DNA from: Planctomycetota bacterium
Lineage (GTDB): Bacteria; Planctomycetota; Planctomycetia; Pirellulales; Pirellulaceae
Length of the DNA: 64,000 nucleotides
NCBI GenBank assembly: GCA_016872775.1
Contig: VGZA01000033.1
Coordinates: 1 to 64,000, forward strand
Reading direction: 5' to 3'
The notes under the pieces are model-generated. The model ran no database searches. It was not told where the DNA came from and worked only from the letters and a program-made list of their open reading frames with translations. The translations under genes and the position numbers were made by a program. Each line of letters opens with the position of its first letter. Positions within the stretch are counted from its first letter, which is position 1. Shown here in pieces: positions 5,511 to 15,152 of the stretch.

Positions 5511-8500
5511 ATGCCTGCGTCGGATGTTATCATAAAAGGAGCGCGCGAACACAATCTGCGGAACGTGGACCTTGTGCTGCCGCGCAATAAGCTGATCTGC
5601 CTGACCGGCGTCAGTGGTTCCGGCAAGAGTTCCCTGGCATTCGATACGCTCTACGCGGAAGGCCAGCGCCGCTACATCGAGAGCCTCTCGACCTTTGCTC
5701 GACAGTTCCTTGGCCAGTTGCCCAAACCCGACGCCGATCTGATTGCCGGCCTGAGCCCCTCGATTTCGATCTCGCAGAAGTCGAGCGGCAATAATCCACG
5801 CTCGACCGTCGGCACGATCACCGAAATCTACGATTATCTTCGGGTTCTGATGGCCCGCGTCGGCACTGGCCACTGTCCTGAATGCCGTCGGGAAATCACC
5901 GCCCAGACGCGCGAACAGATCCTGGTCTCCATCCTGCAGCTTCCCTCCGGTACGTCGTTCTCGGTCCTGGCGCCGTTGATCCGCGGTCAGAAAGGCGAGC
6001 ATCGAGACCTGTTCAGCGATCTGTTGAAACAAGGATTTGTCCGAGCCCGCGTGGACGGTCAGGTGGTCTCCCTGCGCGACGACCTGGGGCTCGATCGCCA
6101 GATGCGTCACGACATCGAGCTGGTCGTCGATCGGCTGGTGGCCAAAGGGGAAATCCGCGGCCGCCTGGCGGACTCGGTGGATCTTGCCTTGCGCATCGGC
6201 AACGGCAATTTGATTATCAGTTGCGAGTCGGACGCGCCGAGTGCGCAGAGCGCGCCGGGAGCCGCCGACGGCCCGACGCGTGTTGGCGCCGATGCGATTG
6301 GCTCCACACTGGACGACGAGCTGGAATCGGGTCTGGAGGGACGGAAGTCGGGCGTCGGCGATCCCGGCGTTCCCGATCGGGAACGGGCTCGCTCGGGGCG
6401 CCGCCGTCGGACGGCCTCGTCCGCCACGCGATCCGGCGACATTGTCTACTCGATTTCCTATGCCTGCACGCATTGCCAGAAGAGTTTCGAGCCGCCGTCG
6501 CCGCAGCTGTTCAGTTTCAACAGCCCGCAGGGAATGTGCGGCACATGCGACGGGCTGGGTACGCTGTTCTCGTTCGATCCCGCCAGGCTGATCACGGAAC
6601 CCGGCAAGTCATTCCGCGACGGCTGCGTGCTGACGATCGGTCCCTGGAAGGATCTTGGGCGCTGGCGGCGGCACATTTATCAGGGCGTTGCCGACACGAT
6701 GGAACGCAAGTCGCAGTTGCCGGCGAACTATCTGCTCGATACGCCCTGGAGTGACCTGACCGCGGCGCAGCGCAACTGGTGGCTGTGGGGGACGGGCAGC
6801 GAGCATATCACGTTTACCTGGCGTGGCGGCTCTTCCCCGATCAAGTACGGAGGAAAATTCGACGGCATTATTCCCGACCTGCGCGAACGCCATCGGACCA
6901 GCAAGAGTCCGCCGCAGATCCGCCAGTTGGAATCGTACATGACGACCGGACCGTGTCCCGCCTGCCATGGTTTACGGTTGAATGCGCAGGCGGCGGCCGT
7001 TCGCATCCGCACCGCCGCGGTTCGTTTTCAAGCCGAAAATCGCTCGTACCTTACGCTGCCGGAAATCTGTGAATTGTCGGTTGCCGAGGCGTGCGAGTTC
7101 TTTCAGCAGCTTGAGCTTGATTCCACGCGCACGCTGATCGCCTCCGAGGTCCTCAAGGAGATCCGCGCGCGGTTGGGATTCCTGCTGAACGTCGGGCTCG
7201 ATTACCTGACGCTGGCGCGCACCGCGCCGACCTTGTCGGGCGGCGAGTCGCAACGGATCCGGCTGGCCAGCCAGATCGGTTCGGGGCTGGTCGGAGTCCT
7301 TTACATTCTCGACGAGCCGTCGATCGGGTTGCATCCTCGCGACAACGACCGCTTGCTCCACACGCTGCGGATGCTCCGCGACATGGGGAACACCGTGGTG
7401 GTGGTCGAGCATGACGAGGAGACGATGCGGGCCGCGGACCACCTGATCGATTTCGGACCGGGGCCTGGCGTGCGCGGCGGCGAGATCGTCGCCAGCGGGC
7501 CCGCGATCGCGATTGCCGGCGAGCCGCGCAGCGTCACCGGCAAGTATCTCAGCGGCGCCCTGCGCATCGAGATTCCGGTCGAGAGGAGGAGCCCCTCGGA
7601 CCGCTGGCTGCGCGTGCTTGGCGCCCGCCACAACAACCTGCGCAATGTCGATATCGAAATCCCGCTTGGCGCTTTCGTCTGCGTCACTGGTGTCTCCGGC
7701 TCGGGGAAAAGCTCGCTGGTCAACGACATCCTGGTCGAAGCCCTGCGGCGCGACCTGAACGGTGGCGAGGGCGAACCGGGTGAGTTTCGCGAGATGCTGG
7801 GCCTGCAGCATCTCGACAAGCTGATCGCCATCGATCAGTCGCCGATCGGACGCACGCCGCGCAGCAATCCAGGCACCTACATCAAAGTGTTCGACGCCAT
7901 CCGCGACATGTTCACGCAGTTGCCGGAAGCGAAGCAGCGCGGATTCAAACCGGGGCGATTCAGTTTCAACGTCGAAGGCGGCAGGTGTGAAGCATGCGAG
8001 GGTAACGGCTCGAACCGATTGGAGATGGACTTTCTTGCCGACGTCTGGGTTACCTGCCCGGTTTGCGAGGGTCGACGATTCAACCGGGAGACGCTGCAGG
8101 TCAAATTTAAAGAAAAGTCGATCACCGACATTCTGGAGATGGACGTGCAGCAGGCGCTGGAGCTGTTCGAAAATGTGCCGCAGGTCCGGCAAAAATTACA
8201 GACGCTGCACGATGTGGGGCTCGACTATATCAAGATCGGCCAACCATCGCCGACATTGTCGGGTGGCGAAGCGCAGCGGATCAAACTGGCGAGGGAACTG
8301 ACGAAGCGCAGTACCGGGAAGACACTTTATCTGCTCGATGAACCGACCACGGGCCTGCATTTCGCCGACATTCAGTTGCTGCTAAAGGTCCTGCACGGTT
8401 TCGTCGACGCCGGCAATACCGTGTTGGTGGTCGAACACAATCTGGATGTGATCAAGACGGCGGATTGGATCATTGACCTGGGGCCGGAGGGAGGTTCGGG

Positions 8501-11500
8501 AGGCGGCGAAGTGGTCGCGGTGGGCACACCGGAGCAGATCATGCAGGTGCCGCGATCGCACACCGGGCAGTCGTTAACCCGGCACCTGCAGCCCCGAACG
8601 TTCGCCGACAGCGTGGGCGTTACGAGCGACTCCACGTCGGCGGGTAATCGTGGAGCGGGCGTTGGACGCGGCAGGAAAAGAACAAAGGCAGCGCCCGCCG
8701 CCGCGCAAGCCGCGCCCGGTCCCGCGCCCGGATTTCTGGCGACGGAGATCTCCGTGCGCGGTGCGCGGCAACATAATCTCCAGGGGATCGACGTTACCAT
8801 TCCGCGCGACCGCATGACCGTTTTCTGCGGCCCCAGCGGTTCGGGGAAGAGTTCCCTGGCGATGGACACCATTTACGCCGAAGGACAGCGACGCTATGTG
8901 GAGAGTTTGAGTTCCTACGCGCGGCAGTTCGTGGCCCAGATGCAGAAGCCGCAGCTCGAACATATCGAAGGCCTGTCGCCCGCCATCGCCATCGAACAGA
9001 AGAACCTCGGCCACACGCCTCGATCCACCGTCGGTACGGTCACCGAAATCTACGATTACCTGCGAATCCTCTTTGCCCGCCTGGGAGTTTCGCACTGCCC
9101 CGATTGTGATCAGCCGATCGGCACGCAGACCGCCGACGAGATCATCGACAAAGTGCTGCGCTATCCGGAGGGCACGCGACTCTACCTGATGGCGCCGTCG
9201 ACGGTCGTCGTCGGCCAGGAATACGCGTCGTTGTGGGACGAGTTGCGAAGTTCCGGTTACGTCCGCGTGCGGATCGACGGCCAGACCTATTCCCTGGACG
9301 CGTTGCCGGCGATCGATCGTCGACGACAGCACCGGGTGGAAGTGGTCGTGGACCGGATTGTGGTGCAACCCAACCAGCGTCGTCGTCTTGCGGACAGCAT
9401 TGAAAATACGCTCGCACTCGGCAAAGGAGTGTTGCATCTGGCGCTGGTCGATGAAAAGCTGCCGGAATCGCGCTGGGAAACCGCGGTCCACAGCCAGCAC
9501 CTGGCGTGCGACCGTTGCGGCAAAAGCTACGAACCGCTGACGCCGCACAGCTTCTCGTTCAATTCGCCGCTGGGCTGGTGTCCGGCCTGCAATGGCCTGG
9601 GGGTGCAGGTCGGGGCAAACCTCGCGGCGCTGGTACGCGACCCGAAATTGACCCTGGATCAGGGAGCGCTCGACCTCTGGCCGAACCTGTCCCGCCCGAT
9701 CGGAGCGGCGATGCTGCAGGCATTTTCCGAGGGCAGCGGGATCCCGACCAACGTACCGTTTCAGGAATTGAACGCCCGGCAACGGCGCTGGCTTCTGCAC
9801 GGGACCGCCGACATCTGGTTCAGCGTCTCGCCTCCGGCAGGAGACTTTCAATTCCAGTTCAAGGGACTGTACCCGGCGCTGGAAGAGGCTTCCCGGATCA
9901 ACCCTTCGCTGCGGATGCGACTGGAATCGTTCGTCGGGGAGGTGGAATGTTCGAATTGCGGCGGCAGCCGGCTGCGCCCCGATGCGGCAGCGGCCCGATT
10001 CCGGGATCGCACGCTGGACGAGATCTGCCGCATGCCGCTGGCGGCGTTGCGCGCCGAGATCGCACGCTGGAACTTGAATGTGCGCGATCGACGGATCGCG
10101 GGTGAACTGCTGCGGGAAATCACCGGCCGCCTGCAGTTCCTGCTCGACGTGGGCCTCGAATATCTGTCACTCTCCCGACCTGCTGCGACGTTGTCCAACG
10201 GCGAAGCGCAACGGATTCGGCTGGCCAGCCAACTGGGGAGCGGGTTGTGCGGCGTGCTGTATGTGCTCGACGAGCCGACGATCGGTTTACATCCCCGCGA
10301 CAACCGCCGGCTGCTGGCGGCGCTGCATAAGCTGCGCGACCTGGGGAATACGCTGCTCGTCGTCGAACACGATCGCGAGGTGATTGAACAGTGCGACGCG
10401 CTCTGTGACTTCGGTCCCGGTGCGGGCAAGCACGGCGGGCGAATCGTCGCGCATGGGCCACCCGACCAGGTGAAACTCGAACTGGAGTCGGTGACCGGGC
10501 CGTATCTTTCCGGTCGCAAGAGCCTGCCGATTCCGTCGAACCGGCGGATCGGCTCCGCCGATTCGCGGCGCCACAACTGGGTGGAGATTCTGGGAGCGCG
10601 CCACAACAACCTCCGCAACATCGATGTGAGAATCCCGCTTGCCACCTTAACCGCTGTCACCGGGCCGAGCGGCAGCGGCAAGAGTTCGCTGATCGAGGAT
10701 GTCCTGTACGCGGCGATCGCGCGCAGGCTGCATCGCGCCGCGCGGAACCCGGGATTGCATACGGAAATACGCGGGCTGGAGTACATCAACAAGGTGATCC
10801 AGGTCGACCAGCAGCCGCTGGGGAATTCACCCAGCTCGAATCCGGCAACCTATACGGGAGTCTTCGACGACATTCGGGAACTTTTCGCGCAGCTGCCGGA
10901 GGCCAAGCTGCGAGGCTATTCACCCCGGCGATTCAGCTTCAATGTGCCAGGCGGTCGATGCGAGGCCTGCGAAGGCAACGGCCAGAAGCGGATCGAGATG
11001 CACTTTCTCCCCGACATCTGGGTCGAATGCGACGCTTGCCGCGGAAAACGATACCACGCCGAGGTGCTGCAGGTCGCTTTCCACGGAAAGTCGATCAGCG
11101 ACGTGCTCGAGATGACCTGCGGCGAGGCACGGGAATTGTTCCAGAACATCCCCGCGATCCGCCGCAAGCTGACGACCTTATGCGATGTGGGACTGGATTA
11201 CCTGACGCTCGGCCAGGCAGCGCCGACACTCTCCGGCGGCGAGGCCCAGCGCGTGAAGCTGGCCGCGGAATTGTCCCGCCCCGACACGGGCCGCACGTTG
11301 TACCTGCTCGACGAACCGACAACCGGCCTGCATTTCAGCGACATTGCCAAGCTGCTGGAGGTCCTGCAGCGGCTGGTCGACCTGGGGAACACCGTCGTCG
11401 TCATCGAACATAACCTCGATGTCATCAAACAGTGCGACTGGATCGTCGATCTTGGCCCGGAGGCGGGTGCGGGTGGCGGCCAGATCGTTGCCCAAGGTAC

Positions 11501-12647
11501 CCCCGAACAGGTTGTCAAACAAGCGAAAGCCGCGCGCAAAGCGGCGCGAACAGGCGATGAACCGATCCGCTCCCATACCGGCGAAGCGCTGGCGGAACCG
11601 TTGAAGGCCGGACCCTATCTGCCGCGCGAACCGTACAAACCACTGCTGGAAACGCAACCCGGCGACATGGAAATCAAGGAGCTTGGCAAGGACGCGAAAA
11701 TGCCCTGGGAGTTGGACGGGCGCGGGTGGCATACGCGGGATCGCGTCGGTCGTAAAGGCGAACCATGCAAATGGGACGGTCGGATCCTGGCGGAGGTGGT
11801 CGATCGTATCCAGCAACTGGGGCAGTTCGCGCCCACGGACTGGACCGAACGCTCCGTTGTCGAAATCCGCCGCAAGGACCTCGACGGCTGGTTCTTTCAT
11901 GCGATCACCGGTGAAGCCTGGCTGCTGAAAATGAAATTCCGCGTCGCCCGCGGCACCTTCAAGCAGCAGGAACTGCAGGAACGCGTCAAGCTTAAGACCC
12001 TGAATGAACTCCACGAACTGCCGATTTACGGCAACGAACCGCGCGTGAAATATAAATCGATCGGAGGTCCCTGGCAGGAAGCGGAAATCCGGGCGCACAC
12101 TTTCGAGGAAATCGATACGCCCGAATTCTGGTCGTTCCTGGAAGAATCGGTGCACGGATACTGCAAAGTGGCCGAGCGGCAAGCCGCGATGCGCGGCCAC
12201 CATCTGCCTTGGCAGGCGCTCGGCATCAAGTGGCATTTCATGCGCAAAGGGTTTCCCGACGGTCGGACCGTGGAATGGGACGATCACCTGTTGGAAAAAC
12301 TGCACGCATTGCTGCAGCAGGTCGCGCCCCATGCCGAGTTTGTCTGGGGTAATCGGACATTCTACAAGTGCAACATCGAGCGGGACCTGCCGAGCTGGGC
12401 GATCGTCTATACGAAGAACCCCACTGCCTTGACACTGATGCTGCGGAGTCGCAAGAACCAGGTGCCGCTGGGTGCGATTACCGGATTCGGCTGCGAGCAG
12501 CAGGTGGACGGGTCGTCGCCGAACGAGGATCTGGTCTACATCCGGTTCCGTTCTTTGGACGACTTGCGTCGCGGGGATTTGCCTGATTTTCTGAAAAAGC
12601 ATGCCGCCGATTTCCGGGCAGCGGCCAGCCATTTTCGTGCTGTTTAG
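5511..12647 (+). CDS. uvrA: Tandem double UvrA fusion (excinuclease ABC subunit A) with an extra C-terminal domain
   Basis: One uninterrupted frame of 2378 residues encodes two full UvrA units. UvrA recognises DNA damage and loads UvrB in nucleotide excision repair. Unit 1 (about 1-1030) has Walker A GVSGSGKSS near residues 33-41 and 725-733, signatures LSGGESQR and LSGGEAQR, and zinc modules CPEC, CTHC and CEACEGNG. A low-complexity insert lies at about 240-305. Unit 2 (about 1076-2030) has CGPSGSGKSS near 1106, GPSGSGKSS near 1717, and its first signature reads LSNGEAQR instead of LSGGE. A 350-residue C-terminal region (about 2033-2378), starting near LPREPYKPLLE, matches no part of UvrA that I know. 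Double UvrA proteins are known in planctomycetes and chlamydiae. Start ATG 5511; no close strong ribosome binding site is visible. Confidence 0.96.
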   Translation: MPASDVIIKGAREHNLRNVDLVLPRNKLICLTGVSGSGKSSLAFDTLYAEGQRRYIESLSTFARQFLGQLPKPDADLIAGLSPSISISQKSSGNNPRSTVGTITEIYDYLRVLMARVGTGHCPECRREITAQTREQILVSILQLPSGTSFSVLAPLIRGQKGEHRDLFSDLLKQGFVRARVDGQVVSLRDDLGLDRQMRHDIELVVDRLVAKGEIRGRLADSVDLALRIGNGNLIISCESDAPSAQSAPGAADGPTRVGADAIGSTLDDELESGLEGRKSGVGDPGVPDRERARSGRRRRTASSATRSGDIVYSISYACTHCQKSFEPPSPQLFSFNSPQGMCGTCDGLGTLFSFDPARLITEPGKSFRDGCVLTIGPWKDLGRWRRHIYQGVADTMERKSQLPANYLLDTPWSDLTAAQRNWWLWGTGSEHITFTWRGGSSPIKYGGKFDGIIPDLRERHRTSKSPPQIRQLESYMTTGPCPACHGLRLNAQAAAVRIRTAAVRFQAENRSYLTLPEICELSVAEACEFFQQLELDSTRTLIASEVLKEIRARLGFLLNVGLDYLTLARTAPTLSGGESQRIRLASQIGSGLVGVLYILDEPSIGLHPRDNDRLLHTLRMLRDMGNTVVVVEHDEETMRAADHLIDFGPGPGVRGGEIVASGPAIAIAGEPRSVTGKYLSGALRIEIPVERRSPSDRWLRVLGARHNNLRNVDIEIPLGAFVCVTGVSGSGKSSLVNDILVEALRRDLNGGEGEPGEFREMLGLQHLDKLIAIDQSPIGRTPRSNPGTYIKVFDAIRDMFTQLPEAKQRGFKPGRFSFNVEGGRCEACEGNGSNRLEMDFLADVWVTCPVCEGRRFNRETLQVKFKEKSITDILEMDVQQALELFENVPQVRQKLQTLHDVGLDYIKIGQPSPTLSGGEAQRIKLARELTKRSTGKTLYLLDEPTTGLHFADIQLLLKVLHGFVDAGNTVLVVEHNLDVIKTADWIIDLGPEGGSGGGEVVAVGTPEQIMQVPRSHTGQSLTRHLQPRTFADSVGVTSDSTSAGNRGAGVGRGRKRTKAAPAAAQAAPGPAPGFLATEISVRGARQHNLQGIDVTIPRDRMTVFCGPSGSGKSSLAMDTIYAEGQRRYVESLSSYARQFVAQMQKPQLEHIEGLSPAIAIEQKNLGHTPRSTVGTVTEIYDYLRILFARLGVSHCPDCDQPIGTQTADEIIDKVLRYPEGTRLYLMAPSTVVVGQEYASLWDELRSSGYVRVRIDGQTYSLDALPAIDRRRQHRVEVVVDRIVVQPNQRRRLADSIENTLALGKGVLHLALVDEKLPESRWETAVHSQHLACDRCGKSYEPLTPHSFSFNSPLGWCPACNGLGVQVGANLAALVRDPKLTLDQGALDLWPNLSRPIGAAMLQAFSEGSGIPTNVPFQELNARQRRWLLHGTADIWFSVSPPAGDFQFQFKGLYPALEEASRINPSLRMRLESFVGEVECSNCGGSRLRPDAAAARFRDRTLDEICRMPLAALRAEIARWNLNVRDRRIAGELLREITGRLQFLLDVGLEYLSLSRPAATLSNGEAQRIRLASQLGSGLCGVLYVLDEPTIGLHPRDNRRLLAALHKLRDLGNTLLVVEHDREVIEQCDALCDFGPGAGKHGGRIVAHGPPDQVKLELESVTGPYLSGRKSLPIPSNRRIGSADSRRHNWVEILGARHNNLRNIDVRIPLATLTAVTGPSGSGKSSLIEDVLYAAIARRLHRAARNPGLHTEIRGLEYINKVIQVDQQPLGNSPSSNPATYTGVFDDIRELFAQLPEAKLRGYSPRRFSFNVPGGRCEACEGNGQKRIEMHFLPDIWVECDACRGKRYHAEVLQVAFHGKSISDVLEMTCGEARELFQNIPAIRRKLTTLCDVGLDYLTLGQAAPTLSGGEAQRVKLAAELSRPDTGRTLYLLDEPTTGLHFSDIAKLLEVLQRLVDLGNTVVVIEHNLDVIKQCDWIVDLGPEAGAGGGQIVAQGTPEQVVKQAKAARKAARTGDEPIRSHTGEALAEPLKAGPYLPREPYKPLLETQPGDMEIKELGKDAKMPWELDGRGWHTRDRVGRKGEPCKWDGRILAEVVDRIQQLGQFAPTDWTERSVVEIRRKDLDGWFFHAITGEAWLLKMKFRVARGTFKQQELQERVKLKTLNELHELPIYGNEPRVKYKSIGGPWQEAEIRAHTFEEIDTPEFWSFLEESVHGYCKVAERQAAMRGHHLPWQALGIKWHFMRKGFPDGRTVEWDDHLLEKLHALLQQVAPHAEFVWGNRTFYKCNIERDLPSWAIVYTKNPTALTLMLRSRKNQVPLGAITGFGCEQQVDGSSPNEDLVYIRFRSLDDLRRGDLPDFLKKHAADFRAAASHFRAV

Positions 12648-14504: not shown

Positions 14505-14780
14505 ACTTGACTCTTAAAAACCGGATGCCTGGAACGGATTAGCGAACGCTGCCGGATTCGTGGCCGAGTCGTGGGGCGGCAAAACGCATCGGGGCGCAGG
14601 CCCCACCCAGGATTGTAGCGGCGCGGCAACAATCGGAGCCAGTCGACTTTTGCCGGTTCCCAAGAAAGCCCCCGATTTACTTCGCAGGCAACAACGGTAC
14701 GATTGCAGAGAGGGACCAACAGTTCGGAGCCGGATGGCTTACCAGGGGCTTATACCAGGGGATCATTGGGAGGGATCGTG

Positions 14781-15152
14781 ATGAACGAGTCGAAGGTGCG
14801 GGGTGTTGTGCATGTGATTGAGCCGACCAAGTCGTTCGGGCAGCGGGGGTTCCGCAAACGTGTCGTGGTATTGGAGCAACAGAACGGGCGGTTTCCGAAC
14901 TATATCCCGCTGGAATTCACGAACGACGGCTGCGATGCGGTTGACGACCTGCACGTCGGTGATGACATCGAGATCCAATACCGGCTCGGCGGTCGCAAGT
15001 GGCAGAAAGATCCCCAGAGCGAAATCAAGTATTTTCTCAGCGCCGAGGCGATCGGGTTCAATCGGATTGGCGACGCGCCAGGCCCGTCGATCGCCGATGC
15101 GAACAACGCGTTCGCTGAGTCATCCCCCGAAGATGGGGAAGCGCCGTTCTAA
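14781..15152 (+). CDS. DUF3127-like small protein with SSB-like acidic C-terminal tip
   Basis: ATG 14781 is chosen because GGGAGGGA precedes it at suitable spacing; an in-frame upstream start would add a leader without similarity. The 123-residue product begins ESKVRGVVHVIEPTKSFGQ and continues with GFRKRVVVLEQ, a beta-rich pattern typical of DUF3127, a family thought to have an OB-like fold. After a globular part of about 95 residues it has a flexible Ala/Asn/Ser-rich linker and ends SSPEDGEAPF. This resembles the acidic-tail plus Pro-Phe tip of single-stranded DNA-binding proteins (DDDIPF in E. coli SSB). Family assignment is by eye; nucleic-acid binding is inference. Confidence 0.75.
   Translation: MNESKVRGVVHVIEPTKSFGQRGFRKRVVVLEQQNGRFPNYIPLEFTNDGCDAVDDLHVGDDIEIQYRLGGRKWQKDPQSEIKYFLSAEAIGFNRIGDAPGPSIADANNAFAESSPEDGEAPF

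Follow-up and report, generated by a model that had tools for sequence, protein, structure and literature searches.

The window, i.e., the whole stretch of 64,000 nucleotides that was analysed, derives from a planctomycete of the family Pirellulaceae and contains a gene for a small protein of the DUF3127 family, which is proposed here to be a second single-stranded DNA-binding protein (SSB). Its coordinates and its C-terminus SSPEDGEAPF, as given in the preliminary description, were confirmed in the reading frame (Table 1). The likely ribosome-binding site precedes the ATG by 7 bases and an in-frame GTG, which sits just 5' of this ATG, by 4 bases. What had been described as a DUF3127-like protein was identified to be simply DUF3127, as the Pfam family (PF11325) covers residues 6-90 with 62.9 bits against a cut-off of 27 (E 3.2e-17). 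In addition, a match to PHROG 4932, annotated as 'single strand DNA binding protein', was obtained with E 2.9e-16, which spans residues 6-120 of 123 and positions 3-114 of the 117 in the profile. Counting against an SSB, the Pfam scan with E values up to 1 returned no family other than DUF3127 and left the SSB family PF00436 unmatched. No NCBIfam model matches the protein. Elsewhere in the window (5511-12647, forward strand) a protein of 2378 residues is encoded in which the UvrA interaction domain and the UvrA DNA-binding domain are each represented by two stretches, and which hence apparently consists of two UvrA copies fused in tandem.

Table 1. Features of the DUF3127 locus; positions are those of the window.
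Feature	Position	Strand	Basis
DUF3127 gene, 123 aa plus stop; proposed second SSB	14781..15152	+	frame, coordinates and C-terminus read from sequence
Likely ribosome-binding site GGGAGG	14768..14773	+	read from sequence
Predicted OB (SSB/PriB-like) domain, residues 1-95	14781..15065	+	AlphaFold model, SSB/PriB matches
Codon of F46, strand 3; F in 125 of 133 rows	14916..14918	+	
Codon of W74, aligned with SSB tryptophan; W in 129 and Y in 4 of 133 rows	15000..15002	+	
Linker, variable, low model confidence, residues 96-116	15066..15128	+	pLDDT, column entropy
Second linker motif N-N-A-F-A-E-S (pattern N..[FL].[EQD].), residues 108-114	15102..15122	+	65 of 78 clusters
SSB-type acidic tip EDGEAPF, residues 117-123	15129..15149	+	

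An AlphaFold model of the protein was built from an alignment of 133 rows, from which one locus (L194) was omitted. The model comprises strands at residues 4-13, 24-34 and 39-47, a helix at 49-56 and two further strands at 62-75 and 82-95, and this five-stranded barrel with its helix placed between strands 3 and 4 can be assigned with confidence, as far as a model allows, to the order of the OB fold. Whereas the core reaches a pLDDT of about 95, the value falls to about 55 after residue ~95, consistent with the disordered linker that had been assumed from the sequence. A Foldseek comparison with the PDB yielded 147 chains at E up to 0.001, and among the 50 of these that were listed, 49 were SSB or PriB, the remaining one being an MCM complex. 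In VIA-align the Fervidobacterium SSB gave the best Z of 12.6 (rmsd 2.4 over 97 residues), and E. coli SSB gave a Z of 11.6 (rmsd 2.9 over 95 residues), PriB 3klw one of 12.3 (rmsd 2.3 over 87 residues) and PriB 1woc one of 12.1. SSB and PriB are thus close to tied in Z, and the modelled fold cannot tell them apart. A second model, that of a phage DUF3127 protein built from a phage-only alignment of 55 rows (a subset of the 133), revealed the same elements and the same kinds of match, with a best Z of 12.0 and an rmsd of 2.2 over 86 residues. Taken as predictions, both models together with Foldseek and VIA-align bear out the OB-like fold that had initially been suspected; a shared fold by itself says nothing about function.

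A relationship to SSBs was also recovered at the level of profiles. Searching the PDB with the single DUF3127 sequence gave nothing usable and only family profiles got to SSBs: with the 133-row profile 14 sequences were matched with E values up to 1, all of them SSBs, the best being that of D. radiodurans (1.4e-6), which was likewise the sole match at E up to 0.01 of the phage-only profile (6.7e-4). The alignment of phage plus planctomycete sequences was too variable to serve as a search query, and a profile-profile comparison of DUF3127 with planctomycete SSBs gave a weak match (probability 46%, E 2e-4, 57 columns), which counts against an SSB. One virus-contig member (L199:5001-5450), whose product is 85% identical to a Bacteroides plasmid protein, matches phrog_4932 and also the general phage SSB family phrog_44 (5.4e-12) and so forms a sequence bridge between the two. 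In the search with the 133-row profile, W74 stands opposite a tryptophan in all four SSB sequences displayed. Its counterpart in E. coli SSB was placed at residue 88 by the matched range 71-101 and not by a displayed alignment, whereby the two E. coli SSB entries were taken as being without the initial methionine. As Trp88 belongs to the four residues for which stacking on single-stranded DNA has been reported in E. coli SSB (PMC5945547), the near-invariant W74 is predicted by its position to correspond to this stacking residue. A second stacking residue, equivalent to Trp40, Trp54 or Phe60, is not claimed, because F46 is aligned with phenylalanine in the Bartonella SSB but with leucine in that of D. 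radiodurans.

The C-terminal tip was defined by a rule, namely an ending in PF with at least two acidic residues among the last eight. This rule was found to hold for 96 of the 97 planctomycete copies, a set pooled from several genome and record searches with duplicates included, the exception being locus L034 with its ending EPVF; after clustering it holds for 77 of 78 clusters at 90% identity and for 33 of 34 at 70%. When the proteins' own tails were shuffled 5000 times, on average 0.09 and at most 2 out of 34 conformed to the rule, as compared to the 33 observed. None of 554 other long, non-overlapping open reading frames from 80 planctomycete loci, which are not curated genes, conforms to it (a single one ends in PF), and within the window the DUF3127 frame is the only one to end in PF among 389 frames of at least 60 residues. 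As judged from these sequences, the SSB-type tip is not a product of chance. Across the 133 rows the mean column entropy amounts to 3.04 bits in the linker (residues 96-115) but to 0.17 for the final two positions, where the proline and phenylalanine of the tip are nearly invariant while their codons vary synonymously. For E. coli SSB, loss of the terminal proline or phenylalanine is described to abolish or weaken partner binding (PMC10164576). Position -3 of the tip is alanine or valine in 78 of 96 planctomycete DUF3127 proteins, as compared to isoleucine in 29 of the 31 canonical SSBs read, hence partner affinity may differ. Among 114 phage, virus-contig and plasmid copies (loci L099-L218 minus L214, which was missed by the profile, L115, L122 and L132, which repeat other records, and L127 and L171, which have open frames), 92 end in PF and 86 conform to the full rule. 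The other 22 are without PF, several of them stopping right after the barrel, and the tail is therefore not essential everywhere. Such natural variants ending at the barrel, which could serve as controls, are found at L135, L138, L160, L164, L167, L186, L189 and L190; the viral proteins of L103-L106 end in EEKAPWE instead of xPF. With the tip kept in 77 of 78 planctomycete clusters and in 86 of 114 phage, viral and plasmid copies, the tail proved to be conserved among homologues. Other long open reading frames in the viral loci conform to the tip rule in 9 of 1467 cases, several of the nine being primase-helicases.

Outside the planctomycetes, DUF3127 was found in 84 phage records, of which one is named just 'Bacteriophage' and the other 83 bear names of Bacteroidota genera. 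Within ~4 kb on each side of the gene in six phage records, genes for ERF and a YqaJ exonuclease, for RecT, for a primase-helicase, for NinG or for RusA were identified. Gene clusters labelled exonuclease, NinB/Orf, Erf or Sak4 are present in 76 of 114 viral loci and, when helicase, primase or NinG clusters are added, in 98 of 114; these labels derive from one representative each, near-copies are included, the counts stand without a matched control, and this set of 114 differs from the one used for the tip in that it leaves out plasmids L113 and L114 and includes L127 and L171. Two virus contigs carrying planctomycete-like copies encode Sak4, a resolvase and an integrase (L099) and exonuclease VIII plus Erf (L101), respectively. 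In a phylogenetic tree all sampled planctomycete rows group with the viral L099 (100/100), beside the phage rows, with the viral L100 inside the group; this tree comprises 103 of the 133 rows and 94 columns, with every second planctomycete locus omitted, and has long branches and an unsettled bootstrap. As it has no root and lacks chromosomal copies from Bacteroidota, the tree does not give the direction of transfer.

The genome from which the window derives possesses one DUF3127 gene, one canonical SSB ending in GEDIPF and one RecO, so that the initial proposal from the sequence, an additional SSB whose tip is of the same kind, fits its gene content. Within the family, 178 of 241 genomes and 48 of 68 genera carry DUF3127, with one match per carrier listed, as compared to 2 of 199 genomes in a phylum-wide sample, one of these two being the window's own, and 1 of 14 control genomes, a Bacteroides. 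Out of 221 matching stretches, the best 80 lie mostly in records named Pirellula, Pirellulaceae or Planctomycetaceae, two (L057 and L087) being named only 'bacterium'. Since a canonical SSB was identified in 40 of 40 relatives, DUF3127 is to be regarded as an additional SSB and not as a replacement. RecO_C was detected in 35 of the 40, and because one DUF3127 carrier (G021) is without a RecO_C match, RecO cannot be the partner everywhere. No conserved gene neighbour was found across the 80 planctomycete loci, where the best other family occurs in 9 of 80; the simple ORF picker used there found the DUF3127 frame in 53 loci and an antisense frame in 17. Vertical inheritance was probed in the 11 genomes for which both loci were available, and a comparison of the distances between DUF3127 cores with those between SSB cores gave r 0.14 and p 0.20.

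Next to the tip, the linker was found to contain a second motif. In planctomycete linkers the pattern N..[FL].[EQD], starting 14-19 residues from the end, occurs in 65 of 78 clusters at 90% identity and in 24 of 34 at 70%, with shuffles giving a mean of 0.9 and a maximum of 6. It was identified in 2 of 45 phage DUF3127 representatives and in none of 31 canonical planctomycete SSB linkers. A looser pattern, [DENQ].[FY] upstream of the tip, was counted in 17 of 33 planctomycete representatives (shuffled mean 8.7) and in 8 of 32 from phages (4.2), while the Bacteroides-plasmid-like group gave 4 of 6 against a shuffled mean of 2.6, which is not significant, and from these counts the second motif appears to be mainly a feature of the Pirellulaceae. 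The aromatic residue alone is not special, because 21 of 31 canonical planctomycete SSBs hold some phenylalanine or tyrosine at the equivalent place of the linker. Primase-helicases of the phrog_239 family (L108:5444-7267, L140:2643-4445 and L249-L263) carry an SSB-type xPF ending, which is mostly acidic, with [DE]AF upstream. Within one neighbour family of phage primase-helicases 10 of 18 end in PF, as compared to 0 of 11 and 0 of 32 in two other helicase families, and among 15 relatives of the L108 protein, several of which are near-identical, 12 end in PF and 3 in VF, all 15 with [DE]AF upstream. DUF3127 aside, the combined pattern was found among 11,473 open reading frames only in 19 members of the phrog_239-type primase-helicase family and in 2 short frames, whereby the loci had been fetched because of these genes, so that the count is no genome-wide rate, and relatedness inflates it. 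It may be speculated that a phage recombination SSB was taken up once by the Pirellulaceae and kept as a dedicated second SSB hub, its tail being lengthened to comprise a pair of docking elements (xPF and, ~15 residues from the C-terminus, N-x-x-F) which, together with the [DE]-A-F plus xPF of the primase-helicases, would constitute an unrecognised bipartite docking code for a common partner; as a whole, this scenario is put forward as a doubtful one.

Comparison with known systems places the protein next to, but apart from, the canonical SSB (PF00436; E. coli SSB, here L017). Both have in common the OB barrel, a tryptophan at the Trp88 position, a disordered linker and the acidic-xPF tip, whereas DUF3127 is without a PF00436 match, is shorter (123 versus 171 residues in this genome, with a shorter linker), has alanine or valine instead of isoleucine at position -3 in most planctomycete copies and is present additionally. 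The PHROG 4932 SSBs, i.e., the DUF3127 proteins of Bacteroidota phages, belong to the same domain family and are tipped in most copies; their genes are often part of recombination modules and LPF is the prevalent ending, whereas in the Pirellulaceae the gene stands alone on the chromosome and its product has an additional motif in the linker. A model for the present proposal, by analogy, is the HK620 SSB (DUF669), a different DUF of phage and not chromosomal origin. Experiments established this phage protein as an SSB and showed that Sak4 is recruited and stimulated by its six C-terminal residues, NDYPPF (PMC5928155). For Enc34 ORF6 and T7 gp2.5 (DUF2815, T7-type), a DUF was likewise established as an SSB that has an OB fold and an acidic tail, the hallmark of the T7 type being a long capping helix directly after strand 2 (PMC5686142). 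Membership of the T7-type SSBs was considered and rejected, as this hallmark is absent from the model, in which helix 49-56 comes after strand 39-47, between strands 3 and 4.

A different function that has to be weighed is that of a PriB-like primosome protein, an OB dimer serving replication restart and not the coating of single-stranded DNA. PriB is among the closest folds, tied with SSB, and its barrel is very similar; however, PriB is described to be without the SSB C-terminal domain (PMC8509808), whereas the tail of DUF3127 is present and conserved, with the tip in 96 of 97 planctomycete copies. Many phage copies moreover sit among annealing and exonuclease genes, and the 133-row profile reached SSBs in the PDB, not PriB, which renders this function very unlikely. 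The tip itself might be mainly autoregulatory, folding back onto the OB face and tuning the affinity for single-stranded DNA with no recruitment of host enzymes. In E. coli SSB the tips were reported to be competitors of DNA in binding to the OB domain, an effect that grows as linkers become shorter (PMC7145534), and the DUF3127 linker is short, about 21 residues. However, near-invariant proline and phenylalanine next to a variable acidic stretch suit a pocket for the end residues better than general charge, and the similar ending on phage primase-helicases points to a common docking site; an autoregulatory tip is accordingly judged unlikely. Finally, the gene might be a phage relic or a selfish gene with no host role, its nearest relatives outside the clade being virus genes in the set sampled and a conserved operon being absent. 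This is highly improbable given that the gene is carried by 178 of 241 family genomes, with no internal stop in the listed matches, and that 33 of the 34 clusters formed at 70% identity keep the tip in spite of synonymous variation in its proline and phenylalanine codons.

The explanation preferred here, with a probability of roughly three in four, is that the DUF3127 protein represents a second SSB, encoded on the chromosome, of the recombination type and with affinity to phages, which brings tip-binding enzymes to single-stranded DNA. Computation supports the SSB-type OB fold, the tryptophan at the Trp88 position, the tip, the phage recombination context and the coexistence with a canonical SSB, whereas the coating of DNA, the docking of the tip in the pockets of RecO and other enzymes and a role in Pirellulaceae recombination or repair are inferred. 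The suggested mechanism assumes that the OB domain coats single-stranded DNA, as would be expected from its fold, the conserved stacking tryptophan and the phage context, whereby the short disordered linker would present the acidic-xPF tip to the SSB-tip pockets of DNA-maintenance enzymes, RecO being one candidate partner in this genome. In phages, the gene neighbourhood suggests that DUF3127 serves as the SSB of strand-annealing recombination modules. The Pirellulaceae appear to keep a single chromosomal copy outside conserved operons, besides their housekeeping SSB, and its role would most likely be to bring recombination or annealing enzymes to single-stranded DNA at recombination or repair intermediates.

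The functional class as such is not new: PHROGs and RefSeq phage records already connect DUF3127 with SSB, and a paper on a Pantoea phage ties the two together as well (PMC8004638). Within the open-licence PMC literature, DUF3127 turned up in a single paper and PF11325 in none, and the matches listed for SSBs of Planctomycetes, Pirellula or Rhodopirellula, in one case 8 of 164, contained nothing on the DUF3127 protein. Measured against this literature, novelty lies in the chromosomal, family-wide second copy with its extended tail and in a second motif which is resembled by the tails of phage primase-helicases. If the proposal holds true, a Pfam domain of unknown function becomes a testable SSB family. 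Other phage DUFs (DUF669 and DUF2815) proved to be SSBs by experiment. The second motif, if real, would bear on the debate whether residues beyond the SSB tail end aid partner binding. Most Pirellulaceae genomes examined would then hold two tailed SSBs, and competition of these for the same tip pockets would become a direct question.
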